Assembly (NCBI GenBank): GCA_012026835.1
Contig: VEPN01000007.1
Coordinates: 1 to 64,000 of the forward strand
Direction of reading: 5' to 3'
Origin: Candidatus Methanoperedens sp.
GTDB taxonomy: Archaea; Halobacteriota; Methanosarcinia; Methanosarcinales; Methanoperedenaceae
Length of the DNA stretch: 64,000 nucleotides
The position numbers and the translations under genes are program-made. Every line of letters starts with the position of its first letter. The stretch's first letter is position 1. The notes beneath the pieces were generated by a model, which saw only the letters and a program-made list of their open reading frames with translations, searched no databases and was not told where the DNA came from. Of the stretch, positions 30,727-63,105 are shown piece after piece.

Positions 30727-30741
30727 AAAAGATGACTAAGG

Positions 30742-31971: not shown

Positions 31972-32030
31972 ATTCAATACCTCTGAATCCGGCTTCCTGC
32001 CAGACCGAGGATTGATTTTGAACTGATAAC

Positions 32031-32087: not shown

Positions 32088-32120
32088 ATCAGCCGTAGCC
32101 TTCGTTTAAAAATTATTGAG

Positions 32121-39002: not shown

Positions 39003-39211
39003 ATTGTGGCGTCATGGCGCAAATCAAAAACCAACCATAAACATTAATATGCGCCAAAAAAGATAGAAGATCATGGCGTATTCGGCTGTCCATCGTCCCA
39101 CACCACGCAACTGGCACAGGCGTGCCAGGACAGCTTTATCACCAGTGTATGAAATGCCTTAATACTTTTCGATATTAAACCTTTAATACAAAAAACCTTA
39201 TATTGAACCTC

Positions 39212-42201: not shown

Positions 42202-42717
42202 TCAATCATCTTTTTTAAAGACACAGATATTTTGTTCCGCTTTCGCATGGGGATCGACCAAACCGAGTATTCGCTCGTCTGCAAGATTTATCCTTTCATC
42301 ATCCTTGCCTTTGAACCCGTACCTGCCATAATCAGTCAGTGTGGGCTTTCTCTTTATAAAATGGCCGCGCTTTAATTCAAAGGAAAAGGGAAGTGCCCGT
42401 TCACATGCGCTCCTTATCTCTCCCATGGCACTTTCATCCTCAACTTCGACTATTATCTCCCCAACTATGATATTCAATTCAAATGCACAGCCCCCCACAT
42501 TGATTACCTTCATGCCGGGATGGTGAACATCAGCACCTGTACCTGGCCCGCATGTGACCTTTTTTGGCAGGTTTTTCCCATTGATCAGCATCCTTATTAC
42601 GCCATTAACCCTGTCAATCTCATTTAAGATCTTCTCAGCGGTCTGGGGCTGGAGCAGCCGTCTGGGAGATACTCTTACCTGGATTGGCTCATCCCTGACA
42701 GAAGCGATATCTTTCAT
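42202..42717 (-). CDS. mcrD: Methyl-coenzyme M reductase operon protein D
   Basis: 171 residues, the usual McrD size. It shows VRVSPRRLLQPQTAEKILNEI, LPKKVTCGPGTGADVHHPG, VEVEDESAMGEIRSACERALPF, LKRGHFIKRKPTLTDYGRYG and GLVDPHA. ATG 42717 follows GGGAGAATC. McrD is encoded with the MCR genes in most methanogens and helps methyl-CoM reductase maturation; in some ANME genomes it stands apart. Here no mcrA, B, C or G follows, so this copy is separate from the main operon, at least within this window. Confidence 0.92.
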   Translation of the reverse strand: MKDIASVRDEPIQVRVSPRRLLQPQTAEKILNEIDRVNGVIRMLINGKNLPKKVTCGPGTGADVHHPGMKVINVGGCAFELNIIVGEIIVEVEDESAMGEIRSACERALPFSFELKRGHFIKRKPTLTDYGRYGFKGKDDERINLADERILGLVDPHAKAEQNICVFKKDD

Positions 42718-42908
42718 TCGATTCTCCCCATTTATACAATGATTGATGTGTGATATATTAAAGGTTTTGTTTCGTATATTCACGAATAAAATAATTAATT
42801 GCCATATTTAAATTTGTCATATCCCAAAATAAAGTCACAAATTTATCTCGCAATCTTTATATGTATTTACCTTGTAATTCGTAACAGAATCATTCGGAGG
42901 ATGGTACT

Positions 42909-44355: not shown

Positions 44356-46335
44356 TCAAGCGCCTTGGCTTTTTTCCCCAATAGACAGGCCAATTTCTTT
44401 CTGTCTCTTGCTCATCAGGCTTGCTATGATAGTTATTAATATCCCTGAAACAAGCATTGCGCTTCCAAGCCACATAAAGCTTGCAAGGGGCTGCTTTTTA
44501 ACATTCATCTCGATTTTTCCCTGCTGGAGCTGGTGCGGCAGCAATCCTTCAAAATCCACCTTGGTATCTGATAAAATGCCGTGATGTACTGCCGCATTGG
44601 AGATAAACCCGAACTGGCGGCTCTTCCTGTACACCGTTGACATATTCATTCTTGTGCCATCAAAAATTTCAAAATCCACTACCTGGAGCCAGTCAGGTCC
44701 TTCTTTTTCAAGCCTGAAATCAAGATACCGCAAACCAATTCCCCCTTTTTCTTTATAAACCCCTTTCTCGTTGAAAGCATAGGTAAAGTTGTGGCTTGTT
44801 TCAAAAGAAGTGCTAAAGATCGCCCCAAGGATTATGAAAACTATTCCCAGGTGAAGAAGGTTCACGCCTGTAAGATGCAGGCTCACTACCCTGTTTTTTA
44901 TCCTGCAATCCCTTATCATCTTGAAGAGTACAGTACCTGTAACAAAGAAAAATACCGGCAGGTAGGATGTTACTGAGAACGAACCCAGTATTTTTTCAAG
45001 GAACCCGGTATAAGGACCCGGAGCGGCAACAGTATGCGCGCTATCCGGTATGGCAATGCCGAGGATGAGCGAGGCCGCAAAATAAATAATACCCACACCT
45101 GCAAGAGTACGGTTCTTTACCCTCCCGTAGAGCATGCATGCACCCAAAAGGTAAGATAAACCCACAATGAACGGATAGAACAGCACATTATAATATTCCG
45201 GGAACATGATGATTTTCTGGCCCGTATAGAAAAGAATAATATATACTGTCGGCCCCCAGAGAGAAATGAACGCCATCACAAGCAATAATGCGACAGTGAA
45301 ATAAAAAGTATTATGCGGCGCAAAAGCTGCGCGGATACCTCCTGATCTGAGAGTTTCATGTGCATCATACCTGCTGCCAAGAACCAGCGAGAAAATAATC
45401 ACAGCAACCATGAAAACAATAAGAAGCCACCAGGAAGACGTCCCGGGAAAGCTGTGTATGGAACTGTAAATACCGCTTCTTGCCACAAAAGTTGTGTATA
45501 TTGTCAAAAGGAATGTAATGATACACAGAAGAGGAAACCATTTCTTATATTCCCCTATCGCAAAACGAACAATTGCGTGCAGCGCTGCGGTCAGCAAAAG
45601 CCATGTAGCCAGTATTGATGACTGGACCGGGTCCCACTGCCAGAAACCGCTCCATCCGAGCAGGCGGTTGGCCCAGATGCCTCCTGTAATCATCCCTATG
45701 CTCAGGAACAGCCATGAAAACCGCAGGTAATTCCTTACATTAGGCATTTCCCCGCGTGTCAGGTATGCCAGGGATGCCGCAGCCGGAATGACAGTGAATG
45801 CATATGCCGCAAATACTGAAAAAATATGCAGGGGCATAAGCAGATCCAGAAGCGCGGGGTCAAGACCATTACCTGAAACAGGCAGGGAAGCGCCTTCCAT
45901 AGTGAATATCGACGTAAAAGGCGACATCCCGGCGGTTAGAATAAGCAGGAAAGCGCAGCCGATAAGTGCATATACATCTGTCAGGAGGGGGGCATCCGAT
46001 GTTTTATGCCGCTCTGTGTGAACAAGTACAACAATGAGAGAAAGCCATGCCCATACAAGATATGTGCCCTCCTGCCCCACCATTATGGCGGAAAGACGAT
46101 AGAGGAGCGGCATCTGCTCATTGTCATGCTGCCATACATAAAACAGGCTGTAATCAAGGGATATGAAAGAATATGCCAGTAACATCATTGCAAGGGTCAC
46201 AAAAGCCGCAGAGAGCCTTGTAAACATAACCCCCGATTTTATTTTGCCTTTTAGCAGGAATACAGCGGCAGAACAGCATGATATGATACCCAGATATAAT
46301 AACAGGTTTCCCGCACTCACCTGTACCACTTCCAC
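44356..46335 (-). CDS. ccmF: Cytochrome c heme-lyase subunit CcmF
   Basis: The 659-residue polytopic membrane protein has about 14 helices. It shows the CcmF features: DYSLFYVWQHDN near the start, VGQEGTYLVWAWL, LLGWSGFWQWDPVQSSILATWLLLTAALHA (the WGxFWxWDP heme-handling motif), TFVARSGIYSSIHSF and a C-terminal periplasmic domain. It joins heme to the CxxCH motifs of apocytochromes on the outer side of the membrane. Its start overlaps the end of the giant multiheme cytochrome by 19 bases, so both are made from one message: substrate and maturase are co-expressed. Confidence 0.9.
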   Translation of the reverse strand: MEVVQVSAGNLLLYLGIISCCSAAVFLLKGKIKSGVMFTRLSAAFVTLAMMLLAYSFISLDYSLFYVWQHDNEQMPLLYRLSAIMVGQEGTYLVWAWLSLIVVLVHTERHKTSDAPLLTDVYALIGCAFLLILTAGMSPFTSIFTMEGASLPVSGNGLDPALLDLLMPLHIFSVFAAYAFTVIPAAASLAYLTRGEMPNVRNYLRFSWLFLSIGMITGGIWANRLLGWSGFWQWDPVQSSILATWLLLTAALHAIVRFAIGEYKKWFPLLCIITFLLTIYTTFVARSGIYSSIHSFPGTSSWWLLIVFMVAVIIFSLVLGSRYDAHETLRSGGIRAAFAPHNTFYFTVALLLVMAFISLWGPTVYIILFYTGQKIIMFPEYYNVLFYPFIVGLSYLLGACMLYGRVKNRTLAGVGIIYFAASLILGIAIPDSAHTVAAPGPYTGFLEKILGSFSVTSYLPVFFFVTGTVLFKMIRDCRIKNRVVSLHLTGVNLLHLGIVFIILGAIFSTSFETSHNFTYAFNEKGVYKEKGGIGLRYLDFRLEKEGPDWLQVVDFEIFDGTRMNMSTVYRKSRQFGFISNAAVHHGILSDTKVDFEGLLPHQLQQGKIEMNVKKQPLASFMWLGSAMLVSGILITIIASLMSKRQKEIGLSIGEKSQGA

Positions 46336-49300
46336 ATAAAGTAGATAAATCCGATAAGAATAAGCGCAGGTACAATATCTTTTAAGAGAATCTCCACATA
46401 CTCCAGCCCCCGCGGTTTTGTCACAGTGAGTACGGCTATCTCCGGTTTACTCCACTTGCCTGAAGAGTCTTTCACATGAACAAAGATAAGATGCTTTCCA
46501 AATGACAGGTCAGAAGTATTTACCATTGCGCCGAGCAATGAAGCGGAAGTGTTTGAGCTGCCCACGACATATTCCAGCATATAACCCTGCCCGTCACCGC
46601 CCATCTTATCGATAAAGTACTCTGCCCTTGTCACTTTCATAAGAGGCGCAAGAACCACGGTCGCCTGTATCATGCTCTTCTCTCCTGCCGGCACGCTCTC
46701 GGGCTTAAGTGTTACTCCAAGCCTTGGAATGAACCCTGAAGCTGCAAGGCTGTGGAAACCTACGGGGTCGGCGCCGCCGTGGCACAGGGTACAGTTTGGT
46801 GCAAACCCGTGCGCAGTCCCGGCTGGGGATGTTCCCTCTGTTCCCATGTTCGTGGCATTAAATGGCAGCTCTCCGCCCTGGTATGTATGACAATCCTTGC
46901 ATCCTGTGATGAGGCCTGCTGTCCAGTTATTCCAGCCCGGGTTCTGCACTGTGCCCCTGGGGTATGAGCTGTAATGGAACCTGCCCTCACCCGAGGCATT
47001 ATGACATGAAGTGCATGTCCTGAAAGAGCTGTTTGAAGTCGAGGATATGTTGAACATATTGCCGCGCAGGATTTTTGAGGAAGCATTCTGTATCCCCTTC
47101 AAAGCTTCAAGATCATTATGGCAGGTGCGGCATGGTTCATAAGCGGCATCACTGATATTCCCGACTATGCGCGTCAGGTTGTGGAATGTCTCTGCCTCTT
47201 CATTGTGGCATTGCAGGCACGCCCCGCTCTCTTTTACCATTGCTATCTGGGCATTACCGTAATGCGCCGCGCCGTATTCTGAGTGGCAGTCCACGCACTG
47301 GATATCCTCATACGGCTGGTACTTTCGCTCTTCGTGTTTTTCATGGCATGTGGTACATTCAACCCTGTAATTGCCAGTACCGCTGAAATACTGCTTTCCT
47401 ACAAGGCTTGGTGTATGGAATTTACTTACCCCTTCAATAGCGTGGCAGGTCTCACAGCCCGATAATACCCTGATCCCGAGGCCGTGGCGCAGCACTCCTA
47501 TCTGTACCCTGGCTTTATGCGGGAATTTCCCTTCCTCGCTGTGGCACTGGAAACAGTTGCCCATGCTCACGTTCTGGTATTCCCTTATAATGAGGGATGA
47601 ATGCAGTGTATTATTCGTCGCGTTATGGCAGTCCCTGCATGAATAGTTGTTATATTTGAAGGTGTTCGCCATTCCCGGAGGTGCGCCGGGGTAATGCGTG
47701 CGGACGACGCTTATGTTGAATTTATCAGCTTTTTCCCTGTTGACGTGGCAGTCCTCACATCTTCTTGTTATTGTCAATCCCTTATCATGGAACGTTGCGA
47801 TCCTGTAACCTGCGTGACAGAGCGTGCAGTTGTTGCTTGAATTATGTTTCAAAACCAGAGGTGCATTTCCCCAGGCAGATGCGTTTGTTGCATTGGCATG
47901 GCATCCGCCGCAGTCCGTGGTATTCAGAAGCCCTATCCTTGTCGAATAATGAGATGTATCCCCGCCGGTTCCTGTCCTGTTTACAAGAGTGTTGGAATGG
48001 CAGACCGTGCAGGATGCGCCTGTTGATATCCCTGCACCGGGGTAGTGTGAATAAACCTGTTTTGCGCCGAACCTGGAGTACCCGTGACAGCTTATACAGG
48101 GTTTTGGTGTATCGTTACCCGGATAAGATACCGGATGCTCCGAAGGTTCACTGCCGTTGCCGTGGCACGCCCAGCATGCCTTGTTTACCTCATCCGTAAT
48201 GAAACCAGTATATGTCACGTTACGGTTAAGACCCTGATGTACACCTTTTTTGAAACCGCTAATATCGATCTTAACAGGTGCAATCCCGCTTCCTGTATGG
48301 CAACTGATGCAGTCCGAGGAATACCCGCCCTGCGTAAGGGTGTAAACATGGAAACTGGAAGGTTCTTTTCCTATGGTTATGCGGTCATCAAGTGAAAGGT
48401 ATTTTAATAGTACCCCTTCCTGCAATACCTGTGTTGTTACATTCCGGGTCTGCTTTTCTCCTGCAATAAGCCGCACATCACTTAATACAATAACAGTGCC
48501 GTTACCTGCCGGGCTATATTCGGCCAGCCTGAAACCGCTTACGGCAGGTCCTGTCCCGACAAATATCCTCTCAAGCTTTGCGCTGAATATATTGATCTTG
48601 CGCCCAGACACCCATTCTTCATGCGTGATGTAGTTTCCCTCGTTTATTATTATGTCCTCTATCAGCGTCCCGTTCCTGGAAAGCTGGAGCTGCGCATTGC
48701 CCCGCTTTATCCCTGCATCGGCAACACGCAGGCTGTAGCCCTCTCCGATATTCCACTCTTCCCCGACACCAAGCAACCCTGTATCAAGCACTGAGAAATT
48801 GGCAGGCATCAGGGCAAGAGTAACATTTTCAGTTGTCTTATCAAGAACATAGTAATCCCTTCCATCGGGCATGTTTGTCCTGTACTCGCTGTCATGGCAG
48901 GCGTAACAGGAATTGTTATCCGTCTCCCTGTGGATGCGTGTTGCAAGCACATTTCCTGATAACTCAGCCGCTGACTGGTTAACCGCCGTGAGCAGCCTTC
49001 TTATGGTAAGGTCAACAACGCTTATGTTACCTGTTCCTACCCCGCCGGTTTCATATTTGAAAACATCGCCATAAGCCACAAGCTCGCGCTTTAGCAGCCT
49101 CCCATCCTTTCCGAATTCGAATATTGCGCCATCTCCTGTCGCTTCTATCAGTGTAAGAGTGTAGTTGTCCGCAAGCTTCCAGGGGTTGCCTGATACGATT
49201 GTCATATTAACAGGAGTGTAGCGGGTATGGTTCCTCGGATCAGGGGGCGTTCCATAACCAGAGGTCATATTCATATGGCAGCGGATGCAGTCCCTGGTAT

Positions 49301-52300
49301 CCATCGGGGATACCGCGAGGTAATGGGAAGCCGATAGTGTCGATGTGCGTGCGGCCTGCGCCCCCCTGGCATGGCATGATACGCAGGAAACATTGGTCGG
49401 CACGTTACCTGAACCTGGTATATGCCTGAACACAATTGGCGCGGTGCTAAAATCGCTGACATGGCAGTTCTCACAAGCCTTGGGTGAACTGCCAGGATGC
49501 GTCCAGCTCACATTGACTGAAAGGCTGTATCTTGCATCATCCCCGGTATTTTGCATAATAGCTATCCAGTTCCCGGCCTGGGGCATCGGGATATTTACCT
49601 GGCCGTAATAAGCTGTAAGATTAGGAGCGTACAGGGTCAGGTTAAGTACACTGCTGCCGTTATAGTTCAGCGTTTCATTAAGCCACCTTGAATTATTGGG
49701 TACACTGAAATTATAAACGCGTGATTCTGGCCCAATAAGGATACCGTTCTTTACCTGCCGCGGCGTATGGCAGTCCACGCAGTTGAGGTTCTTATGCGCG
49801 GACATGCCGTATGCGCTGAAGGCCACAGGTTTGCTGGTGGCGTTATCATGGCAGTCAAGGCAATTTGAGCCCCCGACGCCTACGGTAACGTAATGCAAAA
49901 AGTCTTTTGTAGTATTGGATGTACCGTGACACCCGGCGCATCCCACATCTGAATAATCAGACAGGTCATGGTAGTAATATTTCGTCCCGTCATTAGAGGT
50001 GGTATAGCTGCCGTAACTTGAGTTCGAAGTAATTTCAGGGGGTATCGGAAGAGATGCTTCAGAAAATACCCTGACCATATCATTGTAGGTAACACTGCCT
50101 GAAGAATATCCCTGGTAATGGCATGAAGCGCACCAGTACTGGCCTGTAATACTTGAGTTCCTGGTATTGCTGCCTGCAAGTGTCGATGCGCGGCCAAGAG
50201 GGTCGTGCAGGCTGTAGTTGCGGGATATTTCGTGACAATACTGGCACGCTGAGGTACTGTTGGTCCAGTAGGCTGTTGTTTTGTTCCATTTTCTTCCCGC
50301 AACCTGGCTGTTGCTGTGATAAAGGCCGGGAACCTGTACTGCCAAGATTTCGCCCTGTGGTGAGGTAATATTCAACCCTGCGCCGTAGGTATTGGTAAGT
50401 GACAGCGCCTTCGTGGTATTCTGGTGGCAGATATTGCAATCAAACACACGTATCATGCCTGCAGGCGTGTGGCCGTGGCACTCAGTACAATTCAGGTCTT
50501 TATGTGGAATTATCTGTGTGGGCTGCGCGAAACTTCCGTCCTGAAGCCTGTAGCTTTTTGCGCTTGCATTATAGTGGCACAGGACACAATCCCTGTCATT
50601 TTGCCCGTAGAACACGAGGCTTTCGGCGCTGTGGGTATGGCATTCCGAGCAGGCAGTGCGCCCGTGCCCTGCGACCTGAGGCGCGCGCACTATCCATGAA
50701 GAGGTGGTATTGTCCAGTACCAAGGTATTGTTCGAAGCCGGAACCGAGTTCTCTATGAGCGAGACGTTCCTTGTGGTATTCTGGTGGCATGATTCGCAAC
50801 TGCTCCCGGCCACAAAGTTATAGTTACTGAAAGTGGATGGCGCATGGTCATGGCACTCCCTGCAACTGGCATTCCCGTGTCCCTGCACCTGGGGCGGAAT
50901 TACATACAGCGGATTCCCGCCCGGGTTTGTCACGTTGCTTCTTGTTGAGTTGGGCTCTCTATAATCCAGCAGTGAAACTATAGAACTTGTGTTCTGGTGA
51001 CAGCTGGTACATGAAACTGCTGTGGAACCTACGAAGGTAAGGTTTGAATTTGAATGGCCGTGACAGTTATTGCATGATGTGTTGCCGTGTCCCGTGGTTT
51101 GCGGCGGATGTACGATAAGCTGCGACGCACCCGGGTTTGTTACATTTGTGAGGTCTGAATTGTTCAATTTCCCGGGTATCAGCTCTACAAGTTCTTCAGC
51201 ATCCTGGTGGCATCCGACACAGTTTGAGCCCACTGTCAGGATGAGGGTTTCAGGCCGGTGCCCGTGGCACTTGTAGCATGAGACGTTGCCGTGCCCTGCT
51301 ATCTGGATCGGGTGCGGTTCAGCCCTTGAATCGTTGACTGTCAGTTCGTCCCTATCAAAAGCGTTTGATATTGATTTTGAACCGTGGCATGTGCTGCATA
51401 TGGTGTTATTGCGGATTCCTTCCACAAGAGTCAGGTTTGTTGTGTTTACAGTCTGGTTTGTGTGGAGCATGTAGGCGTTAATACTATCCTCGTGACAGAA
51501 GATGCACTGGGATTCATTATTATATGTATAGGAGAACCGCAGGAATACGGATGCCGGGCTTCCCCTTTCAAGCGGCAGCGCGCCTGTTGAGGTCTTGCCG
51601 TGGCAGCGTTCACAATCAAGATGCTGGCTTGCATTGTATGCCACGCTCTGCGCATTCTGGCCGTGTATGCGCTGCTGGTGGCAGTTGTTGCAGTTTGAAG
51701 TGGTAAGATGGATTGAGCTGAAATTATGCAGCATGGCGTGGCACTTCAGGCATGTCGAGGCTTTCTCATAATCCGTAAAACTTGAGTCCACTTCCCCGTG
51801 TCCTGAATCAAAGTGGCAGTACATGCAGTTTTTACTGAAATCCTTGGTATGCGGCTCAGTCCTGTTATGGCAATAAGAACACTCCCTGATGGGGGAAGTT
51901 ATGTCCGTAACCCCTGGAATGTTCCCGACCTGGGTATGGCAGTTGATGCACGGCCATGCTTCGTACTGGTGATAGTTATCGTCTACGGCCAGCCTCAGGT
52001 TATCAAAATATACGCTTCCCGTGCTCCCGCTGCCATAAACCCCGAGCCAGAGACGGCTTACCATGCCTGTGGCATTAAAAGAGGCCGATTCGTTCACCGT
52101 GCTGTTGTGGAACAGTACCCTTATCTCCCTCCAGCCGTCCCGGTCAAGGGGGATAGTGTAGTTGTACCATGCCGTAGTGTAAGCCCCAAGTACAAGTTGC
52201 GTATTCGCATCGATTGAAGAATTAACCACGACCGTGATGCCTTTATACCTGCTGGCATTGGCAGCGCCGAGGCTGTTGCCAAGATACCCCGAAAGACCCG

Positions 52301-55300
52301 TGTAGCCGAGCAGTGCACTGTGGTTCCCGCTATCGTTGTTAGCGCCGCTGTAATAAACCTGGGACTGGATGAAATTGGTGAGGCTGGCGGTAAAGACACT
52401 GTCATTCTCAAAGTCCGACAGTATATCAGCATGTTCTATCAGGCCTGAGACGTTCAGGAGGTTTTCAGACACGCCGCTCTCGTGGCAGTTCATGCATGTG
52501 GCGTTTGCCTGCTGGTATTTATCCTGCCCTGGCCAGCCGTGCCCTTCGGTCTGGTGGCAGGTTTCGCAATTCGGCGGTCGTGCCAGGTTGTGCCTTCCCC
52601 CGTGGCATAATCCGCATTCGATCTCTTTATATTGTGTGTGGCTTCCGGTCTGCTCTTTTTTCAGGTCATCGATAAGGATTGTTCCGCTTGAACCGGATTC
52701 ACTCTCGCTTTCAAGCTTGATCCGTACAGTATCTGCAAAGCTTATGTATATCAGATCATGCTGGCTGAGTTCTTTTATCGGGACTGATATCTTACGCCAT
52801 CCTGCCCAGTTTACCTGCATCGCTGATGACTGATGCCAGCTTACTTTCGTGGATCTTGTATTATTGATAGCAAGATACATTGTAGTATTGGAGTTATCCC
52901 CGTACACCCAGAGGCTTATGCTGGTGGCATTCGTGAGGTCAAGGTTCTTCCTGTCTATATACACCCTGCCAAAGCCTGCGCCAAGAGAATAATCTACCTG
53001 TCCTGAGAAACTGCCGCTCTTATTTGTGGTGCTCGTGCTTATCGAAACAGTGCTGAACCTGTAGCCGCTTGTGGCTACAATATCCGATACATCCTCGAAG
53101 TTCTCAAGCGTGGTATTGCTGCCGCTTAAATTCCCGGGAACGCTCTGCATTCCTGAGCCAGATGATGAAGGATGGCACAGGTTACATTGCGGCACCCGCG
53201 GCGGGTCTGTGATGTTGCCGTGGCATGACTGGCATGCCGTTTCCTTGCCGTACCACGAGCCGCCTGGTTTTGTATTGATGTTTGCATGAATGTCTGCGCC
53301 ATAGGTATCATTGAGATATCCTTCATCAGGATGGTCGGCGCTGTTGTGGCATGTCCTGCATTTTGTTGGGCCTCCCGTACTTCCGGTCTCGTTCCTGTGG
53401 CATCCGCTGCAGCTTGCAGAACTTCCATACCCATGCCAGTCGCAGGTATTGCTAAGGCTCCTGTGAGTATGGTTTATGCTAAAATTAGATGGGGCGATGC
53501 CTGTATCGTCATGGAAATAATAATGCATATTGATGCTGTTCGGCTTATGGCACCGCGCGCAGCCCCATATCATAACACTGAAGTTTTCCCCTGTGCCTGG
53601 ATATTCTGCAATCTGGAAAGAGTAATTGCCTTCAGGAATGCTTTTTCCAGGGAACAGTACTGAAGTGGAATATGTCTTATCGCTCTCGTACAGGGGATAT
53701 GTACCGTAGAGAGTGCCGTTGGGATAATACACCAGGGCAGTGAGGCTCTGCCCTGTTCTTCGAAGCCCTGCGCTGTCAAGCACTGCTACTTTGAGAGTAA
53801 GGTTCCTGTATTCCTCGGGCGCTGAGTCAGAAGCCCACGCAGAGCCGCCTATCAGCACTTCACCTTTATTTGTCCAGATACGAAGGTTTGAAGTTGTGAA
53901 CAGGCGTGAAGCCGTTCCACCAATGCCGCTCTTTGATGATGTGACATTGATGAAATATGAAGAATAATCATCCGGGGCCGTAAGGTTCACGACCGCTTCA
54001 CCACCGGCATTTGTCGCAGTCGTGTTGCTGGAAATGGTCGTGCCGTTATAGCTGTTCAGGGTAGTCACGACCGTGGCTGCGTACGCTGTACCTGTAGTTG
54101 AAATATTTTCCCGCACTGCTATTACTGCCGTAATGTTCTCTCCCGGATTATAGGCTGTCTGGGAAAGTGTCAGGTTAACGCTCAGATTTACGACATATGG
54201 AAGCACAACGCTTCCCGTGATGCCGGCAGAGTCCGTGGCATTGACTGTCACATTATACCTTCCTGCCTGGCCGGTAAATGCCTGTGATAATATATTATAA
54301 CCCGATTGGTTCAGGCTTGTTGTATTTGTCTGGTTCACGATGGAGGTTAAGTTGGATATAGTGATATTTACCGTGGCATTAGCTATCGTAGTGGCATTGG
54401 TTTCATCCTCTACCCGTGCGAATATTGATCTTGTTTCCCCTACCTTTGCAGATATGTTCTGTATCGCTATATTGAGCCTTCTTACCCTGAAGGCGGCGGA
54501 GGCATTCCCGTTATCAGTGCCGTTTGAAGCCGATGCGTTGACCGTGTAAATGCCTGTGGCTGTCGTACCTGAGTAATTCGCGGTGTAAACGCCGCTTCCC
54601 CTGTCTGTTACATTCCAGTACAGGGTGCTAAAATTCCTTGTACTGTTCGATGGAGAGGACACTGTTATATTAACCACCCCGCCGCTGATGCCCGTGATGC
54701 TATCGCTCACGTTGACTGTTATCTGCGCAGTTTCATCCGGGTTGTACTGCGTCCTGCTGGTCTCTACACTTAAATTAAGCCGTACCCTGAATGTGATGTT
54801 TGCCGTACCTGTTACATCCTGGTTATCCCTGACAGTGATATTCAGAAGATATGTGCCGCTCACTTGCGGTGTGCTTAACGTGTGGTTATAATATCCCTGT
54901 GTATTTGTCGTATTGGTATAGTTCACTAAAGTGCTGTTCGGGTATGTGATATTGAAATAGACAGTGGCATTTGATATGGCCATTCCAGTGCGGTTATCTG
55001 TTGCATAACCTGTGATAGTTACATTACCAGCGCCAGGTTCGAACGGTCCTCCTGCACTTGCATTAATATCAAGCCTGCGCACCGTGAATATTGTGGTGTT
55101 GCTCCTGCTTAGCGTACCGTTGGCTATGTAGCTGCCGTTGGTATACAGTATGTATGAGCTTGCGTTGGCAAGAGAAAAGGTGTTACTGTATGAGGTGTTC
55201 GAGGTTATATTTGCCATGTAAACAGGCGGGTTATTTTCCGGCTCTATGGACAGGTCATCGAACCACACGCTCCCCACAGTATCTGAGACAAGGTGTACTT

Positions 55301-58300
55301 TTACGTTATCGGCATTAGCAGGCGATGAAGCGCTCCCCTGTAATGATACCCAGCCGTTTTGCTCCCAGACTGTTTTCCGGGTATTGATAGCTGTAGAAAT
55401 ACTGCCTGTCCCGTTGTACCACTCGACCCACAATCTCACATCTCCGCCTGTAGTGTTGTCTGTCTTTACCCATACGCTGAACGTGTAACCTGTATCCGGT
55501 AAAATTGTATACAGGCTGGAATAGTTCCATTCTCCTTCTGTGGCATTTGCAGGATACCTCAGTATTCTGGCGCTGTAAGTTCCTGTCCTTGGAATCGTAT
55601 CCTGGGTTTTTATCCCGTTCCCCGCGCCTCTCCATCCGTCGGGCAGGCTGTTATTATCAACATCTGTCTCAAAGGACGGGTTAAATGCAAAGTTCTTTTT
55701 TACAGTGATGTTCATGCTGGCGTTTGCGCCTGCTCCCCTGTAGGTTGTGGTGCCGCTTGCTGAGATACTCCCTGATGTTGTGTAAACCGCCCTGTCAGTG
55801 GCAGTATTGATGTCGAACTGGTCAAGCTCAAATACCGCGGTATTGTAACCTGCATTCTCCCCGGTGCTTGCGCCTGCCGTAATGGTGTAGTTGCCAGGAG
55901 GCGAAACCGGGAGGGTAAAAATAAAGCTTGCAGGCGTGGTCGTATTTCTTGTTTCTTCAAACACCCTGATGCCACCCGGATCATAAATCCTCAGGGTCAG
56001 GTCTGAAGTAGTTATATTCCCTGTGACATTCACATTTACGCTCACGTTCTCACGGGTATTGTATATCGTTTTGTCAATACTGATGTTCACCACGAGGTCT
56101 CCTACATTGAAGCTCGTGTTCTCCATCCGCATGAGGCCATTTACCGTGGCATTTGTAATAGCAGTGAACCTGCCTTTTATCGCCGGGATAGTATAATTTG
56201 CCAGGACCTCGCCTGTAGCGTTCGCCTGTGTAACATTTACCTGTGCCACGCTGCCGTTGGGATAATATACCGCGGTCGTCACGCTGGTGATAATATAATC
56301 CCCTGTGATATTCCGGAGTTTCGTTGCCAGAACCGCTGTCTCGCCCTGGGAATACATATTTTTGTCCTGGGTAATTGCAACGGCGTATCCTTCAACCGTC
56401 CCGTTGGCCACGCTGTATGGCGACTGAAGGGAACTCATAGAAGTTGTATACGGGCCTGATGTAAGAGGCCGCTCAAAATAGAGATAATATACCTTTCCCT
56501 CGTATGCTGAAAGGGTCCTGATAAAGGTGACATTCACATAACCTCCCATATCAAATATACTTGCAGCTTTTGGGTTTCCATCTATGTCATACAGCGCAGC
56601 CGTGCTTCCTGAATACCCGCCCGGCAGGACAAGGTTAAAGGTCACGGTGCCTGAATTCTCCCCGGTATTGTTGTTGAACAGAAGGATTGGAACCCTGTAA
56701 TCCCTGTACGGGTCAAACCATGACTGGTTAACCGTGTATGCTGTAAAGGAGGTGTTATGCAGCGATACGACGCCGCTGTCATTCACGCTCACGCTCGCAT
56801 TGAATATACCGTGAGCCGTACTGTTAAAGCTCCCGGTAAAATTGAGAACATAGCTGCCTGAGTTCGTTGATGTTGCGCTGTACGTGTAGGGACTGCCGCT
56901 TTGCAGGATAGTGATATTGACCTGTGCGCCCGTGATATTAAATTTTGTCTCATTATCTTTCACAGTACCGTAGATTACAAGAGGAACAACTGTACTGGAT
57001 GAGAGCGTTGACTCATTGAAATTATACGGGCCAAAGAGGGTGGAGGTGATATCAAGTGTGCGCACCTTAAAAGTCGTATAAGCGCTGCTGTTTCCCGATG
57101 TGGCGTTCACGCGGTACATCCCGGTAGGGCCTGCTGTAAAGTTGAATGTATAATTCCCCCCTGAACCGCTGGCAGCGCCCTGGGCCGGTATGGGAGAACT
57201 GAGATTGTACAAAGTGACGTTATCGAATCTGATATACGCGCTTCCTCCGATACTTGTATTTTTTGCGTAGCCGTTCAGTTTTATAAAAGATCCCGCAGGC
57301 AGCGTGAAACTACCCTGGTAGAACTGTTCCCCGTTCCTGTAAAACCGCATCGCTCCGGCATCGTATTCTATGGAAAAACGGATTTTTTGGTCGTTGGTGT
57401 TTTCCTGTTTTGAATACCGTTGCACGCCGTTCATATATACAGAATATCCGTCCTGTGAATTATCCGAATAATTGAGGAAATCAAGAGACGCATTTTTCGT
57501 GGTATTTCCTATCGTGGGTCTTGCAAGAAGATAGCCTACTGTTCCGCTTGTGTTTATCTCGTATTCAAGGATGAAATGGGATGGTAATGAGGTAGTATTG
57601 AGCTGCACAGCTTTTCCGACCCATGTGTTATTTCGTGTTAGGTTGGTTGTGTAAAAGAGCAGTTCATTGTCCTGGGTATAGTTGAGGTAATAGCCAGTAC
57701 TATTATCAGGCGCGGAATAGTTCATTTTGCTTTCATCAAAATACGTGCCTGCAAACTCGTTCCAGATGTCGAATTTCTGTATTGTCACGTTCACGGCGGC
57801 ACTCTGAGGTACTGTGCCGTTCCTTACAAGAATCGTAACATTGGCTGAATCTCCCGGATTATAATGCTGCCGGGCATTCACTAAAAGATTTAGCTGCACT
57901 TCAAATTGCGCTGTTGTGCTGTTGGTCACTCCTTCAGGGGTTGTGGCATTCACAGTTACGATATACCATCCTGCAACAGAATCGTTCGGGAGCGTGTGGT
58001 TCCATACGTAGCTTCCGTTCCTGCCAGTGAGTGTGGTATTTGTTATTTCGCTTGCTGCTGAGCTATTTATCCTGATGATAACATCGGCCATCCTTCCTGC
58101 CCCCAGTGTGTCCCTCAGCAGCCCGGAAATGTTCACTGTTTCACCGGGTCTGTATAAAACGGGGCTCCTGTCAAAACTTGCGTTCACAACGAAACCCGAT
58201 GCCCGCAAACTCAAGTTTGCCGCATTGCCATGCGCAAGCGTTGTGGCGTTCCGTGCGTACACGGCAATTATGTAATCCCCTTCAAGGGTGGTGTTTGAAA

Positions 58301-61300
58301 ATGATGTATTGAAATAGCCGTTCACAGCGCTTCCGTTGAGGTTCTCAATGCTGGCGTCAGGTTTTGTTATGTTAATCGATACATTCGCATTTGCAGGGGT
58401 ATTGTTCAGGTCAAGTACTGTAATATTCAGCAATGCGGTTTCGCCGATAGCATATATGCTCTTGCTTACATTCGTGCTTGTATTATAGTGAATATGAAAA
58501 ACAGGCGCCGCACTTCCTGTGAGGGTATTGTACGTGACATCCACATACGCAGTATAGATGCCTGCGTATAAGTTTGTAAAAGAGACTGAATAGTTGCCCG
58601 ATGAAGTCACTGTGCTGTTCACTGCCGCCGTGCTGCCGTTGTTAAGAGTGACATTGACCGCTGCGCCGCTGGCTTTCTGACCAGTTTCGTCATCAATAAC
58701 TGTGCCGTTTATCACCACTATCGCACCTGGCTGGTACTCGGCCAAGATGTTGGCCGTGACCGTCAGGTTGCTTATCCTGAAGCTTCCTGCCGTATTCCCC
58801 GTAACGCCGCTTCTTGATACATTGACAGAAATATTGTAGGTGCCAAGCATGCTCGTGTTGCTGTGGACAATATTATATTGCCCGTTGCCATCCGTCGTAC
58901 CGTTATAATATGAATAAGAGCCGTTAATCATCACCGTGGAATTGACTGTCGCGCCTGATACCGGGGAAAGCCCGCGGTCATATACCGTGATATTGATCGG
59001 AATGGAACTGTTTCTATTATGCGATGCCAGCAGGACCCCCAGGGAAACATTGTATTTCACCCTGTAAGTGGTGTTCGCGCTTCCGATTATGTTGGCATCT
59101 GAAGCGTTCACAGTGATGTTATAATCCCCTGCCGTATCCACGAGCCGGGAAAGGTTATAGTAGCCTGTGGAATTGGTGGTTGTTGCTGCTGTATAATTAT
59201 ATGTGCTGTTGCTGATCGTGATGTTTACTGGAGCACCGCTTATGTTGCTATTGTTCTCAAGGTCCTTTACGTATCCTGTGACAGAGGCATTATTATCTAC
59301 AATGTATGGTCCTCCTGAATTCACGGTGATGTTAAGACCCCTTACACGGAACGATAAATTCTCGCTGTCCTTTGCAGTCGTGGCATTGTATCCCCATACT
59401 GTGACGTTATACTGCCCGAGGGCTGCACCTGATGAAAGAGTATAATCCGAAGTATATACGCCGCCTGAAGTATGGTTAAGGGTCAGGTTCGCCACAGGCA
59501 TGCCGGCTTTTGTGATATTGGCATAGACTGTGGCATCTGTGATGCCGCCACCAATATTTGCGCTGATTTGTACTGTGTCGCCCCGGTTGAACCGGGTGTT
59601 GTTAGCAGAAGGCGTAATATCAAGAATGGGCGTCCAGTACGTGATGTTGATGATCCCTGTGGAGGAAATTCCGGACAGGGGAAGTACCATATTCTCTCCG
59701 ATAGTTGCGCTGCCTGTCATGTCCATGCCGTTAGCACTGACAGATACATCCCTTGCATGTTGTATGAGAGGTATAATTACCGTAACAGAACTCATATTGG
59801 ATTCAGGAGTAAAAACTGCCGTGTCCGTGACATTGTAACGTGCCGTATCCTCGCTCACATTGTGGGTAATGTATCCTGTGTACCGCTTTTGCAGGATCAT
59901 TTCGTATCCTGTTATGGAAGTCCTGCTGTTGTTTATTCTGACAGGATTGGCTGCCGCGCTAAAACCTGTAATATCCAGTGTTGCACCTGTGAAATTCCCG
60001 ACCCTGGCAAAGCTCAGGTTGTTGCTGGTTTTAACATACAGATGGCGCGGGGTAGACACATGCCCAGTGTAAGTCACCATAAGATCCTCTGAGAAATAGT
60101 ACTGCTGCGTGCTGGCAACGTTCTTATTGTATATCCTTATGATCTGGGCACTGCCGGGATTAAGTATTGCCGGGATATAGCCTGTAAGTGAATCGCTCTG
60201 GGTAAAAGACTGCTCGCCGTGAGGTATAATAGAACTATTGATCTGCCTGCTGTCTATCGTCAGGTTAAAAGCCAGGTCTGCGGTGTTGGCCGGGTCTTTG
60301 ATCTCAGCCGTGGTGTTTAAAAAAGCGCCTGTTATATCAACGGATTCGTAAGGATATAACGGCAGGGTGAATATGCCGCTGATATTTGAGCCATAACTTG
60401 TGGGGATGAGTTTGTAATTTATGGGGTACGGGAACGGGTTGTATGTTACATTGGCAGTTGTCTTCCCTGTGAGGGTAAGTATTGCGCGTGTGATATTGGT
60501 ATTATTTATCCACAGGGTTGAATCAGGTGAAAGGGTCGCATCGCCGCTTACTGTCGGAAGGTTGCCTTTTATTACATAAAAGAAGTTATCCATTACATCA
60601 AATGTGGAATTTGCGGACGCACTGTAATTGCCAGCCGAAGTATTTGCAGATATAATGTATGTTCCACTGTTCCTTCCGGGTATTGAATAGCTGAAATACC
60701 CTGTGGAATTGGAAGTGGTGTTATAATATTCACTTCCGGTGCTTATGTTAACGCGGCCCGCATGACCTGTACCGTTCGTATAATGAGCCCTCCCTGTAAT
60801 GTTTACCTGCCGAAAGGACAGGGCCGGGTCTGCGGATATATAGAACAGCAGGTCTTTTATATGCAGGTAGAAATAAGCCGAGCCTGTTCTCTGTACGCCG
60901 TCCACGTTTGCCGATGCTTCAGCCGTGATGTTATATGCCCCCGCAGTATTGTTTGAAAAAGCAAAAGGTGTTACGCTGCTAACATTTCCTTCATATACAA
61001 GTGCAGAATCGCGGTATATCCTTACCCGCACGCTTGTATCGATTTGGGAACCGTTCAAATATACACCTGGAGCAATATAGAAATTCTCTCCTTTTTCCGC
61101 TTCCTCGCTACTGGCCGTAAGATTCAGGTCAAGCTGCATGAGGCTGTAATTAATGGAAAAATGCCTGGCCGAGTGGTTGTATATAGTCCCTATCCCGCTA
61201 CTGTTAATACGAAGGATGTTTCCCGATACGATGCTGCTTGCCGTAACATTCGTGCTGTTCTCCCAGGCCGTGATGTTGTATGCCCCTCCAGGCAACTGGT

Positions 61301-62603
61301 ATGTTATACCGGAGTTGTTCCAGTTATAGTCCATATCATTTGTAATTGTAAGATCTGAGCTATAGTTACCAGAAACCGAAGCGGTTTTTGTGATGTTGAA
61401 GGAGGAGGTGATATTATATGTTATGGATACGGCGTTCCCTGTTGTGATGTTGATATCGTTGCTGGTTGTAAGATAACCCGTGATGTTGAGGTTTGCACTG
61501 GCAGTCGTGGCATTGTAAACAGTGATGTTGTTTATCTTAACCTCCATGCTCGTTGCCGAACCCGGAACAAGGGAGATGCCGGAGTATGAAGGCACGGCAT
61601 CAGCCGGAAACTGGAAACCAATGTTTGCGAACATGCCTGATGCTGTCGAACCGGTGATAGTGGCGCTGGCTCCTGTCCTGTATAAAGTGGTGTTTGTGAC
61701 CTGGATATATGTGGCATTGCTGCCGTTTAAGCTCCCTGATGTCGCATTCACCCATATCGTGTGATTTCCGGGTTGCGCCGGGGCTGTGAGTATTTTGATG
61801 AAGTTCCCCTGTGAATCTGCGATCAGGTTGTAAGAGCCTGTCCATGATGGGGCTATCTCTACATTGCTGCCTGCTGCGGCTGTGGAATTGTCATAGTATG
61901 CCGCGCCCGATACCGTTATCGTATCATTAGTATGTGCGGGGTTATCAGCAAAAAGGCGTATATTTATACCACCAGGAGAACCGACTGCAAATATAGAGAG
62001 GGAATAAGTCACAGCTTCAATGTAACTGCCGTTCATGGTCGTCGGAAGGGGCAGCCAGTATTCCCCTGCATAGTGGTATATGATAAGGTCGCTTCGTTCC
62101 CATTCGTTTGGTATGCGGATAGTGATGGATGAATAAGTAAGATTGTCTGAAAAAATTTCAAGGTACTGAAAGGGCTGAAAATGCGGTTTTTTTACTGCAT
62201 CGGGCTTTTTTTCAAGTTTCAGGGCATGGATGCCGGCATTTTCCGCAACAGTTATGTCTGATTGTAAACCACTTATTTCAATGGTATATTTCTTTTCACC
62301 TGCCGGCGTGGCAGCTTCTGCGCCTATCCCTGTCATGTTTGGCGCCGTTTGCGATATTTCTGTCTGGTTTGCGGCTATTGTAAGGTTTGCGGTCTCGTTC
62401 AAGTCAGATATATTATGATTGGTTAATGGCACCGAGATAGTCCAGGCTAACAGGGGGATAAGGAAGGCAAGTACGATACCCTTCCTGATTCTTGAGAATG
62501 TTATACTGTCTCTATATGGCCAGCTATCCAGTTTTATTTTAAGCCACGTCTTCATATTAACGTAATTTACGTTTTTTGGTTCCAGAACAGGCGGTTCCCA
62601 CAC
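46317..62603 (-). CDS. Giant multiheme c-type cytochrome with Ig-like surface repeats
   Basis: 5428 residues. An N-terminal anchor or signal (GIVLAFLIPLLAWTISV) is followed by a PGF-pre-PGF-like domain (about 90-200). About 2700 residues of Ig-like repeats come next, each about 90 residues with NITVNAS/NDSAGI..GSANTTYRV-type edges and many NxS/T sites. A lectin-like jelly-roll (about 1700-1820), a DUF2341-like piece (WFDPYRDYRVPILLFNN) and a carbohydrate-binding-like module (NPSFETDVDNNSLPDGW) are embedded. From about residue 3010 to 5275 I count 52 CxxCH motifs with further His ligands and two more jelly-roll inserts. A Ig-like tail and a membrane helix (ALILIGFIYFMWKWYR) close it. GTG 62603 or, more likely, ATG 62555 starts it. 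Confidence 0.9.
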   Translation of the reverse strand: MWEPPVLEPKNVNYVNMKTWLKIKLDSWPYRDSITFSRIRKGIVLAFLIPLLAWTISVPLTNHNISDLNETANLTIAANQTEISQTAPNMTGIGAEAATPAGEKKYTIEISGLQSDITVAENAGIHALKLEKKPDAVKKPHFQPFQYLEIFSDNLTYSSITIRIPNEWERSDLIIYHYAGEYWLPLPTTMNGSYIEAVTYSLSIFAVGSPGGINIRLFADNPAHTNDTITVSGAAYYDNSTAAAGSNVEIAPSWTGSYNLIADSQGNFIKILTAPAQPGNHTIWVNATSGSLNGSNATYIQVTNTTLYRTGASATITGSTASGMFANIGFQFPADAVPSYSGISLVPGSATSMEVKINNITVYNATTASANLNITGYLTTSNDINITTGNAVSITYNITSSFNITKTASVSGNYSSDLTITNDMDYNWNNSGITYQLPGGAYNITAWENSTNVTASSIVSGNILRINSSGIGTIYNHSARHFSINYSLMQLDLNLTASSEEAEKGENFYIAPGVYLNGSQIDTSVRVRIYRDSALVYEGNVSSVTPFAFSNNTAGAYNITAEASANVDGVQRTGSAYFYLHIKDLLFYISADPALSFRQVNITGRAHYTNGTGHAGRVNISTGSEYYNTTSNSTGYFSYSIPGRNSGTYIISANTSAGNYSASANSTFDVMDNFFYVIKGNLPTVSGDATLSPDSTLWINNTNITRAILTLTGKTTANVTYNPFPYPINYKLIPTSYGSNISGIFTLPLYPYESVDITGAFLNTTAEIKDPANTADLAFNLTIDSRQINSSIIPHGEQSFTQSDSLTGYIPAILNPGSAQIIRIYNKNVASTQQYYFSEDLMVTYTGHVSTPRHLYVKTSNNLSFARVGNFTGATLDITGFSAAANPVRINNSRTSITGYEMILQKRYTGYITHNVSEDTARYNVTDTAVFTPESNMSSVTVIIPLIQHARDVSVSANGMDMTGSATIGENMVLPLSGISSTGIINITYWTPILDITPSANNTRFNRGDTVQISANIGGGITDATVYANITKAGMPVANLTLNHTSGGVYTSDYTLSSGAALGQYNVTVWGYNATTAKDSENLSFRVRGLNITVNSGGPYIVDNNASVTGYVKDLENNSNISGAPVNITISNSTYNYTAATTTNSTGYYNLSRLVDTAGDYNITVNASDANIIGSANTTYRVKYNVSLGVLLASHNRNSSIPINITVYDRGLSPVSGATVNSTVMINGSYSYYNGTTDGNGQYNIVHSNTSMLGTYNISVNVSRSGVTGNTAGSFRISNLTVTANILAEYQPGAIVVINGTVIDDETGQKASGAAVNVTLNNGSTAAVNSTVTSSGNYSVSFTNLYAGIYTAYVDVTYNTLTGSAAPVFHIHYNTSTNVSKSIYAIGETALLNITVLDLNNTPANANVSINITKPDASIENLNGSAVNGYFNTSFSNTTLEGDYIIAVYARNATTLAHGNAANLSLRASGFVVNASFDRSPVLYRPGETVNISGLLRDTLGAGRMADVIIRINSSAASEITNTTLTGRNGSYVWNHTLPNDSVAGWYIVTVNATTPEGVTNSTTAQFEVQLNLLVNARQHYNPGDSANVTILVRNGTVPQSAAVNVTIQKFDIWNEFAGTYFDESKMNYSAPDNSTGYYLNYTQDNELLFYTTNLTRNNTWVGKAVQLNTTSLPSHFILEYEINTSGTVGYLLARPTIGNTTKNASLDFLNYSDNSQDGYSVYMNGVQRYSKQENTNDQKIRFSIEYDAGAMRFYRNGEQFYQGSFTLPAGSFIKLNGYAKNTSIGGSAYIRFDNVTLYNLSSPIPAQGAASGSGGNYTFNFTAGPTGMYRVNATSGNSSAYTTFKVRTLDITSTLFGPYNFNESTLSSSTVVPLVIYGTVKDNETKFNITGAQVNITILQSGSPYTYSATSTNSGSYVLNFTGSFNSTAHGIFNASVSVNDSGVVSLHNTSFTAYTVNQSWFDPYRDYRVPILLFNNNTGENSGTVTFNLVLPGGYSGSTAALYDIDGNPKAASIFDMGGYVNVTFIRTLSAYEGKVYYLYFERPLTSGPYTTSMSSLQSPYSVANGTVEGYAVAITQDKNMYSQGETAVLATKLRNITGDYIITSVTTAVYYPNGSVAQVNVTQANATGEVLANYTIPAIKGRFTAITNATVNGLMRMENTSFNVGDLVVNISIDKTIYNTRENVSVNVNVTGNITTSDLTLRIYDPGGIRVFEETRNTTTPASFIFTLPVSPPGNYTITAGASTGENAGYNTAVFELDQFDINTATDRAVYTTSGSISASGTTTYRGAGANASMNITVKKNFAFNPSFETDVDNNSLPDGWRGAGNGIKTQDTIPRTGTYSARILRYPANATEGEWNYSSLYTILPDTGYTFSVWVKTDNTTGGDVRLWVEWYNGTGSISTAINTRKTVWEQNGWVSLQGSASSPANADNVKVHLVSDTVGSVWFDDLSIEPENNPPVYMANITSNTSYSNTFSLANASSYILYTNGSYIANGTLSRSNTTIFTVRRLDINASAGGPFEPGAGNVTITGYATDNRTGMAISNATVYFNITYPNSTLVNYTNTTNTQGYYNHTLSTPQVSGTYLLNITVRDNQDVTGTANITFRVRLNLSVETSRTQYNPDETAQITVNVSDSITGISGGVVNITVSSPSNSTRNFSTLYWNVTDRGSGVYTANYSGTTATGIYTVNASASNGTDNGNASAAFRVRRLNIAIQNISAKVGETRSIFARVEDETNATTIANATVNITISNLTSIVNQTNTTSLNQSGYNILSQAFTGQAGRYNVTVNATDSAGITGSVVLPYVVNLSVNLTLSQTAYNPGENITAVIAVRENISTTGTAYAATVVTTLNSYNGTTISSNTTATNAGGEAVVNLTAPDDYSSYFINVTSSKSGIGGTASRLFTTSNLRIWTNKGEVLIGGSAWASDSAPEEYRNLTLKVAVLDSAGLRRTGQSLTALVYYPNGTLYGTYPLYESDKTYSTSVLFPGKSIPEGNYSFQIAEYPGTGENFSVMIWGCARCHKPNSINMHYYFHDDTGIAPSNFSINHTHRSLSNTCDWHGYGSSASCSGCHRNETGSTGGPTKCRTCHNSADHPDEGYLNDTYGADIHANINTKPGGSWYGKETACQSCHGNITDPPRVPQCNLCHPSSSGSGMQSVPGNLSGSNTTLENFEDVSDIVATSGYRFSTVSISTSTTNKSGSFSGQVDYSLGAGFGRVYIDRKNLDLTNATSISLWVYGDNSNTTMYLAINNTRSTKVSWHQSSAMQVNWAGWRKISVPIKELSQHDLIYISFADTVRIKLESESESGSSGTILIDDLKKEQTGSHTQYKEIECGLCHGGRHNLARPPNCETCHQTEGHGWPGQDKYQQANATCMNCHESGVSENLLNVSGLIEHADILSDFENDSVFTASLTNFIQSQVYYSGANNDSGNHSALLGYTGLSGYLGNSLGAANASRYKGITVVVNSSIDANTQLVLGAYTTAWYNYTIPLDRDGWREIRVLFHNSTVNESASFNATGMVSRLWLGVYGSGSTGSVYFDNLRLAVDDNYHQYEAWPCINCHTQVGNIPGVTDITSPIRECSYCHNRTEPHTKDFSKNCMYCHFDSGHGEVDSSFTDYEKASTCLKCHAMLHNFSSIHLTTSNCNNCHQQRIHGQNAQSVAYNASQHLDCERCHGKTSTGALPLERGSPASVFLRFSYTYNNESQCIFCHEDSINAYMLHTNQTVNTTNLTLVEGIRNNTICSTCHGSKSISNAFDRDELTVNDSRAEPHPIQIAGHGNVSCYKCHGHRPETLILTVGSNCVGCHQDAEELVELIPGKLNNSDLTNVTNPGASQLIVHPPQTTGHGNTSCNNCHGHSNSNLTFVGSTAVSCTSCHQNTSSIVSLLDYREPNSTRSNVTNPGGNPLYVIPPQVQGHGNASCRECHDHAPSTFSNYNFVAGSSCESCHQNTTRNVSLIENSVPASNNTLVLDNTTSSWIVRAPQVAGHGRTACSECHTHSAESLVFYGQNDRDCVLCHYNASAKSYRLQDGSFAQPTQIIPHKDLNCTECHGHTPAGMIRVFDCNICHQNTTKALSLTNTYGAGLNITSPQGEILAVQVPGLYHSNSQVAGRKWNKTTAYWTNSTSACQYCHEISRNYSLHDPLGRASTLAGSNTRNSSITGQYWCASCHYQGYSSGSVTYNDMVRVFSEASLPIPPEITSNSSYGSYTTSNDGTKYYYHDLSDYSDVGCAGCHGTSNTTKDFLHYVTVGVGGSNCLDCHDNATSKPVAFSAYGMSAHKNLNCVDCHTPRQVKNGILIGPESRVYNFSVPNNSRWLNETLNYNGSSVLNLTLYAPNLTAYYGQVNIPMPQAGNWIAIMQNTGDDARYSLSVNVSWTHPGSSPKACENCHVSDFSTAPIVFRHIPGSGNVPTNVSCVSCHARGAQAARTSTLSASHYLAVSPMDTRDCIRCHMNMTSGYGTPPDPRNHTRYTPVNMTIVSGNPWKLADNYTLTLIEATGDGAIFEFGKDGRLLKRELVAYGDVFKYETGGVGTGNISVVDLTIRRLLTAVNQSAAELSGNVLATRIHRETDNNSCYACHDSEYRTNMPDGRDYYVLDKTTENVTLALMPANFSVLDTGLLGVGEEWNIGEGYSLRVADAGIKRGNAQLQLSRNGTLIEDIIINEGNYITHEEWVSGRKINIFSAKLERIFVGTGPAVSGFRLAEYSPAGNGTVIVLSDVRLIAGEKQTRNVTTQVLQEGVLLKYLSLDDRITIGKEPSSFHVYTLTQGGYSSDCISCHTGSGIAPVKIDISGFKKGVHQGLNRNVTYTGFITDEVNKACWACHGNGSEPSEHPVSYPGNDTPKPCISCHGYSRFGAKQVYSHYPGAGISTGASCTVCHSNTLVNRTGTGGDTSHYSTRIGLLNTTDCGGCHANATNASAWGNAPLVLKHNSSNNCTLCHAGYRIATFHDKGLTITRRCEDCHVNREKADKFNISVVRTHYPGAPPGMANTFKYNNYSCRDCHNATNNTLHSSLIIREYQNVSMGNCFQCHSEEGKFPHKARVQIGVLRHGLGIRVLSGCETCHAIEGVSKFHTPSLVGKQYFSGTGNYRVECTTCHEKHEERKYQPYEDIQCVDCHSEYGAAHYGNAQIAMVKESGACLQCHNEEAETFHNLTRIVGNISDAAYEPCRTCHNDLEALKGIQNASSKILRGNMFNISSTSNSSFRTCTSCHNASGEGRFHYSSYPRGTVQNPGWNNWTAGLITGCKDCHTYQGGELPFNATNMGTEGTSPAGTAHGFAPNCTLCHGGADPVGFHSLAASGFIPRLGVTLKPESVPAGEKSMIQATVVLAPLMKVTRAEYFIDKMGGDGQGYMLEYVVGSSNTSASLLGAMVNTSDLSFGKHLIFVHVKDSSGKWSKPEIAVLTVTKPRGLEYVEILLKDIVPALILIGFIYFMWKWYR
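62559..62573. promoter_or_regulatory. Palindromic site before the cytochrome start
   Basis: AACGTAA-T-TTACGTT is a perfect odd palindrome directly ahead of ATG 62555. If that ATG is the start, a dimeric regulator here would control the cytochrome-ccmF transcript. It would lie within the coding sequence if GTG 62603 is used. Confidence 0.45.
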
Positions 62604-62762: not shown

Positions 62763-62798
62763 CTTAACATGTGTAAATTATAACAAACACATGTTAAG
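62763..62798 (+). promoter_or_regulatory. Perfect 12-bp inverted repeat over the regulator start
   Basis: CTTAACATGTGT-(12 nt)-ACACATGTTAAG covers the region just ahead of, and including, the ATG at 62791. A symmetrical site of this length overlapping a regulator gene's own start codon is the usual layout for autoregulation. Confidence 0.65.
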
Positions 62799-63105
62799 AC
62801 TTGCAATCAACTCCATTTCAGAGCTTTCAAAGCTCCTCGGGTTCCTCGGAAACGAGCAGCGCCTCAGCATACTCAAAGCAATAGCAGTGCAGGAGAAGTA
62901 CGCGAGGGAAATCTCGGAGGAAGTTGGCATCTCAAGACCGCTGGTCAACATATACTTGAAGCAGTTCGAGAAGCTCGGGCTTGTGAAAGGCAGGAGCGAG
63001 GTATCGGAAGAGCCGCCGTACTTTCGTAGATACTACAAATCAGTGCCATTCGAGCTGATTGTGAGCTTAGATATGATTCAAAATATGAAGGAGGAAGAGA
63101 AGTGA
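62791..63105 (+). CDS. ArsR-type winged-helix transcription regulator
   Basis: The 104-residue protein is a single winged helix-turn-helix: ISELSKLLGFLGNEQRLSILKAIA (helix 1-2), YAREISEEVGISRPLVNIYLKQFEKLGLV (recognition helix) and a wing with EEPPYFRRYYKSVPFELIV. No metal-binding Cys set is visible. It lies divergent from the giant cytochrome gene, and an inverted repeat covers its start. Its stop overlaps the next gene (GTGA), so regulator and membrane protein are co-translated. It may also control the divergent cytochrome operon; this is inferred from position. Confidence 0.85.
   Translation: MLRLAINSISELSKLLGFLGNEQRLSILKAIAVQEKYAREISEEVGISRPLVNIYLKQFEKLGLVKGRSEVSEEPPYFRRYYKSVPFELIVSLDMIQNMKEEEK

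Follow-up and report, generated by a model that had tools for sequence, protein, structure and literature searches.

The closest described counterparts of the protein examined here are the large multiheme cytochromes (MHC) of ANME archaea. In the sections of Chadwick et al. (2022; PMC9012536) used for comparison, ANME MHC-B, which is associated with CcmF2, combines an S-layer domain, a linker heme, a C-terminal helix and an M6-like heme-free N-terminus, and an S-layer-conduit model for ANME MHC is set out in the same source. The main text of Leu et al. (2020; PMC7082337) reports a 52-heme MHC/S-layer protein that is highly expressed during Mn(IV)-dependent methane oxidation, and a table in Leu et al. 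(mBio 2020; PMC7327174) lists Mn-2 as “Ca. Methanoperedens manganireducens”. The question addressed in the present study is how electrons move through a proteinaceous S-layer in methane-oxidising archaea.

A stretch of 64,000 nucleotides from Candidatus Methanoperedens sp. (contig VEPN01000007.1 of assembly GCA_012026835.1; hereafter the window) was analysed, and its main features are listed in Table 1. The window genome is almost certainly the metagenome-assembled genome (MAG) Mn-2. The window cytochrome resembles the protein of Leu et al. in heme number, in its S-layer domain and in sharing a genome with a 113-heme protein; on these grounds it is almost certainly the published 52-heme protein, whose existence is thus already known. 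The 113-heme companion is a 5,599-residue ORF with exactly 113 CxxCH motifs (G000:C49:10792-27591), equal to the published record heme number per cytochrome, and has weak S-layer matches near its C-terminal end. In the window genome the Ig/heme/S-layer cytochrome is encoded by one gene.

Table 1 Features of the cytochrome gene and its immediate neighbours, with positions in the window
Feature	Residues	Positions	Strand	Basis or remark
CcmF-like heme lyase		44356..46335	-	19-base overlap with cytochrome gene
Whole gene, chimeric multiheme cytochrome	5,428 residues	46317..62603	-	52 CxxCH
C-terminal membrane helix, short basic tail	5402-5424	46332..46400	-	
Inner module, 17 hemes	4765-5275	46779..48311	-	same number in six intact proteins
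S-layer (PF07752) domain, two pieces	4467-4550 and 4610-4684	48552..49205	-	49.8 bits versus cut-off of 30
Linker CxxCH between the two S-layer pieces	4566	48894..48908	-	
Four outer hemes, base side of junction	4275-4443	49275..49781	-	
Head/MHC-B base fusion junction	about 4255-4270	49794..49841	-	similarity switch, tile and finer comparison
Head heme array, 30 CxxCH	3015-4252	49848..53561	-	
Second insert, perhaps related to first	3375-3550	51954..52481	-	BLASTP to first insert, E 0.003, weak
CBM_11/CIA30-like (galactose-binding-like) insert	3154-3281	52761..53144	-	above both cut-offs
Heme-free region, some other domains besides 19 recognised Ig-like repeats	227-3004	53592..61925	-	
Possible CBM_4_9-like domain	2304-2435	55299..55694	-	E 0.0017, below cut-off
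Possible lectin-like insert	1590-1770	57294..57836	-	SPRY E 0.005, Laminin_G_3 E 0.29, both below cut-off
Hydrophobic segment, probable signal peptide	39-62	62418..62489	-	hydropathy; starts of relatives signal-peptide-like
ArsR-type winged-helix regulator gene, divergent neighbour		62791..63105	+	

An earlier note on this DNA, made from the sequence alone, had described a 5.4k-residue cytochrome and linked it to electron export by ANME-2d archaea; the continuity of the frame and the reading as a large cytochrome for electron export in such an archaeon (Methanoperedens) are both supported. The gene is a single open frame of 5,428 codons with a GTG start and an in-frame ATG at codon 17, and the window contains no ambiguous bases (N). 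Counted from this ATG, the apoprotein has a mass of ~584 kDa, to which heme adds ~32 kDa. Nearby genes of the methane pathway encode Mch (40976-41941, -), McrD (42202-42783, -) and an aldehyde ferredoxin oxidoreductase (39203-40927, +). Farther away, a block at 23891-33878 (-) may represent an integrated element of plasmid or viral type; it encodes a weakly matching VirB4-like AAA_10 ATPase (1,077 aa), a Prim-Pol protein and a weakly matching DUF932 protein.

The hand count of 52 CxxCH motifs between residues of about 3010 and 5275 was exact: motif starts run from residue 3015 to 5271 and the last motif ends at 5275, as compared with a mean of 0.25 and a maximum of 3 motifs in 2,000 shuffles of residues 3001-5290. 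No CX3CH or CX4CH motifs occur in the 5,428-residue frame, and a single cysteine (C3054) lies outside the CxxCH motifs. Histidines outside the motifs number 43 for the 34 outer hemes, three for the single S-layer heme and 18 for the 17 inner hemes, so that a second ligand is possible for every heme. Starting at the membrane and moving outward, one would meet the helix, the 17 inner hemes, the S-layer domain with its single heme, the 34 outer hemes and lastly the Ig/CBM chain. This sequence of parts is observed directly in the protein; its placement in the envelope is the one suggested by the S-layer domain together with the published ANME MHC model.

We interpret the protein, with a probability of roughly 65%, as a single-chain electron conduit spanning the archaeal envelope, built as a chimera and with its Ig/CBM part holding the outer tip. 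The base, comprising the C-terminal 1,160 residues, would be anchored in the cytoplasmic membrane and slotted into the S-layer, with its hemes attached by the product of the overlapping ccmF gene. Electrons would pass from quinone-linked cytochromes to the 17 inner hemes, through the linker heme across the S-layer and on to the 34 outer hemes. The Ig/CBM part would reach past these hemes and fix the tip to a partner cell, within extracellular polysaccharide or close to a mineral surface. This interpretation draws on the chain order, the constant base, the switch in similarity at residue 4265, relatives consisting of the head only, the CcmF clade and purifying selection, together with an Ig fold like that of adhesin extenders, the published high expression and the published S-layer-conduit model. 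Counting against it are a stop codon in the sister gene of another MAG (G011), a possible uncleaved N-terminal anchor and the two-chain form of the related base in most congeners that have one.

Within the heme-free region, 19 Ig-like repeats were recognised at E<0.005, along with a few partial ones, using an HMM iterated from one repeat; the repeats noticed earlier are therefore real, and their proposed number (25 or more) is somewhat high. Two repeats modelled together, using an alignment to further repeats from this protein, gave a predicted fold with a pLDDT of 91, for which the best PDB match was 6xi3, an extender repeat from a large adhesion protein of bacterial origin (15% identity, TM-score 0.46), followed by macroglobulin-type domains and, lower down, invasin and intimin. 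Since TM-scores were about 0.4-0.5, these matches indicate the kind of fold rather than close kinship. The 6xi3 protein shares the tandem Ig-like fold of the window head and differs from the window protein in having neither hemes nor an S-layer base. The lectin-like domain of the earlier note survives as a weak match that does not reach the Pfam cut-offs, and its PGF-pre-PGF-like domain yielded no Pfam or NCBIfam match. The carbohydrate-binding-like inserts proposed between the heme clusters were borne out for the first, which is the only carbohydrate-binding match over its cut-off; the second is only weakly similar to the first and has no Pfam match.

Based on this predicted fold, the likely role of the Ig region would be to bind matrix, mineral or a partner. 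A head that is instead a passive glycosylated spacer or shield round the outer hemes, which acceptors would reach directly, appears unlikely. It would accord with the single carbohydrate-binding match over cut-off and with the abundance of N-glycosylation sequons, of which residues 61-3000 hold 210 versus 70 in shuffles, the threefold excess holding for both halves; however, the solved structure closest in fold comes from a large adhesion protein, and a CBM-like insert sits between the heme clusters.

The probable orientation of the head follows from the opposite end of the protein, where the earlier note had recorded the C-terminal membrane helix, correctly, and had missed both the two-piece S-layer domain with a heme between its pieces (4467-4684) and the overlapping CcmF gene. 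Heme counts of the base were compared in six intact proteins from families f1, f2 and f4 of the order; intact bases also occur in a further family, f5. The base count was constant, at one linker plus 17 inner hemes in the window protein, G019, G036, G054, G040 and G050, and the distance from linker heme to C-terminal end was likewise narrow (857-872 residues). Outer hemes, in the same order, numbered 34, 32, 17, 16, 17 and 17. The linker CxxCH itself is conserved in seven proteins. With the closest relative set aside, the window base is 55-58% identical to base regions of relatives with MHC-B architecture.

In a tree of CcmFs sampled from the genomes, the overlapping CcmF grouped in a single clade with all of the other MHC-B-adjacent CcmFs sampled, 13 in number (support 99/98); the named CcmF2 sequences were not part of the tree, and the placement fits the published CcmF2 association of MHC-B. 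Structure prediction of the S-layer region from the window protein and one relative gave no usable fold (pLDDT 41), and a PDB sequence search with this region returned no match. A comparison of the base with viral contigs, in a collection that may not include Borg genomes, produced 58 pattern matches and no relatives.

Since the C-terminal helix and the S-layer domain follow heme 34, the wire would start at the membrane and the Ig region is probably the outermost tip. The earlier note had pictured the N-terminal Ig region as a cell-attached stalk that lifts the heme wire so that it passes through the S-layer or beyond it, which we consider improbable. Long Ig chains do serve as spacers in adhesins, and the hydrophobic segment at residues 39-62 could alternatively stay in the membrane as an uncleaved anchor. 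Against a stalk, the helix and S-layer domain place 17 hemes at the membrane, in Ig-less relatives as in the window protein, and the head-only relative G021_C24 starts with an ordinary signal-peptide-like segment and lacks a C-terminal helix. This corrects the direction in which the Ig region probably points, in a protein that the open-licence texts searched describe by heme count alone.

A protein whose main task is charge storage or cell adhesion, rather than conduction throughout its length, would also make use of dozens of hemes, with their large charge capacity, and of an adhesin-like head. This seems quite improbable, as the constant base of 1 + 17 hemes with S-layer domain and helix, found across three families, is best explained by the passage of electrons, and the cytochrome gene has its own CcmF neighbour.

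Turning to the chimeric build of the proposed conduit, relatives were compared in tiles of 200 residues and then more finely at the join. Residues 1-4265 are collinear with G021_C24, a protein from a congener with 5,320 residues and 36 hemes; identity is mostly 55-67%, drops to 37-51% in a few tiles, and in one tile the best match is out of place. They are more distantly collinear with G034_C5 (6,597 residues, 67 hemes). From about residue 4265 similarity switches to proteins of ~2,150 residues that occur in other families of the order and show the ANME MHC-B architecture. Judged by these sequence comparisons, the window protein is a chimera of an Ig/heme head and an MHC-B base joined near residue 4265. 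The Ig/heme head was found in five of the 186 genomes of the order, and among the intact bases listed only those of the window genome (G000) and G011 carry it. The earlier note had raised the possibility that its two halves, Ig-like and heme-bearing, are always separate genes in homologues; they are fused in G021_C24 and G034_C5, and the parts that do separate in relatives are the Ig/heme head and the S-layer base, at residue 4265 and not at 3000.

The full fusion recurs in G011 (MAG LFW-280_3_2, CABMIH010000087.1), an independent assembly in which the chimera is collinear over the join with 52/52 heme motifs. Its codon 1966 (G011:C87, just above 17945) is TAG, where the window has TAC, and the frame is otherwise open and collinear. 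Pyrrolysine read-through of this codon was considered and rejected, as PylS was not found in G011 beyond a weak match far below the PylS cut-off; the TAG is either a nonsense mutation or a sequencing error. Between the window gene and that of G011, dN/dS was lowest for the hemes of the head (0.08), with values of 0.11-0.13 for the base and 0.14-0.17 for the Ig part, which indicates that all parts are kept under purifying selection. That the gene is an assembly join or is decaying, so that the chimera would not be one functional gene, could be argued from the meeting of two known kinds of protein at residue 4265, from the TAG in the sister gene and from the window genome being a metagenome assembly, but is hardly credible, given the independent collinear copy with every motif, on which ground a join as the source of the chimera was rejected, the low dN/dS throughout, the absence of direct DNA repeats of ≥40 bases within the gene, the gradual change of GC along it and the reported high expression of the 52-heme protein.

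More tentatively, and beyond the conduit itself, the base may be a standard 18-heme socket with its own heme lyase onto which different heads (M6/InhA-like, beta-helix, Ig/CBM) have been fused, the head deciding the acceptor, matrix or partner. Three head types were seen on the base: InhA-like MAM in G036 and G054, beta-helix/NosD-like in G019, and Ig/CBM in the window protein. The G019 protein (L026 5830-15870), from the same genus, has 3,346 residues and 50 hemes, with an MHC-B-type base. A design of this kind, with a base of constant heme number (one S-layer plus 17 membrane-side) and exchangeable outer heads, is thereby made testable.

In trees, an intact lineage, which includes the window gene, stands apart from a split one, where the protein is made as two chains and a separate signal-peptide-like start opens the second. 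The related base is two-chained in most congeners having one, so a single chain is not essential. Two-gene MHC-B-like proteins were observed in several congeners and in another family (L030 4097-8977, L031 1845-7448, L032 4163-9052, L037 and L038), with the break falling where the S-layer unit ends; in L030-L032, all from congeners, the second gene starts a few bases from the stop of the first. This arrangement accounts for most of the in-frame TGA codons in the search results.

Compared with the known systems, the window protein shares with ANME MHC-B, as characterised in the sections of PMC9012536 used here, the S-layer domain, single linker heme, C-terminal helix, heme-free N-terminus and an adjoining CcmF of matching clade. 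It differs in that an Ig/CBM head with 30 hemes replaces the M6/InhA-like head, and in size, having 5,428 residues and 34 outer hemes versus about 2,150 residues and 16-17 outer hemes in MHC-B. No M6/InhA match was obtained in the window protein, unlike in G036 and G054, and a plain MHC-B was rejected because the M6-like head is absent. The protein is therefore best described as a putative variant of MHC-B, with membership judged by architecture in genomes of the same order. The stand-alone Ig/heme giants are G021_C24, G034_C5 and G069_C250, of which the first two, collinear with residues 1-4265, differ from the window protein in having neither S-layer domain nor C-terminal helix. For G034_C5 (G034:C5:617-20410), where Ig-like repeats were also observed, this applies to the parts scanned. 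The main text of Leu et al. (PMC7082337) gives the heme count and expression of the 52-heme protein, without the Ig head, junction, base or CcmF pairing; relative to such main texts and the open-licence literature, what seems new here is the anatomy, an MHC-B base fused to a long adhesin-like outer head. Precedent for the exchange of large N-terminal parts is provided, in the same sections of PMC9012536, by the mixed cytochromes of ANME-3 HMMV2 (MHC-B/C) and ANME-2c ERB4 (86 hemes), which carry pectin-lyase-like or M6-like parts in contrast to the Ig chain of the window protein.
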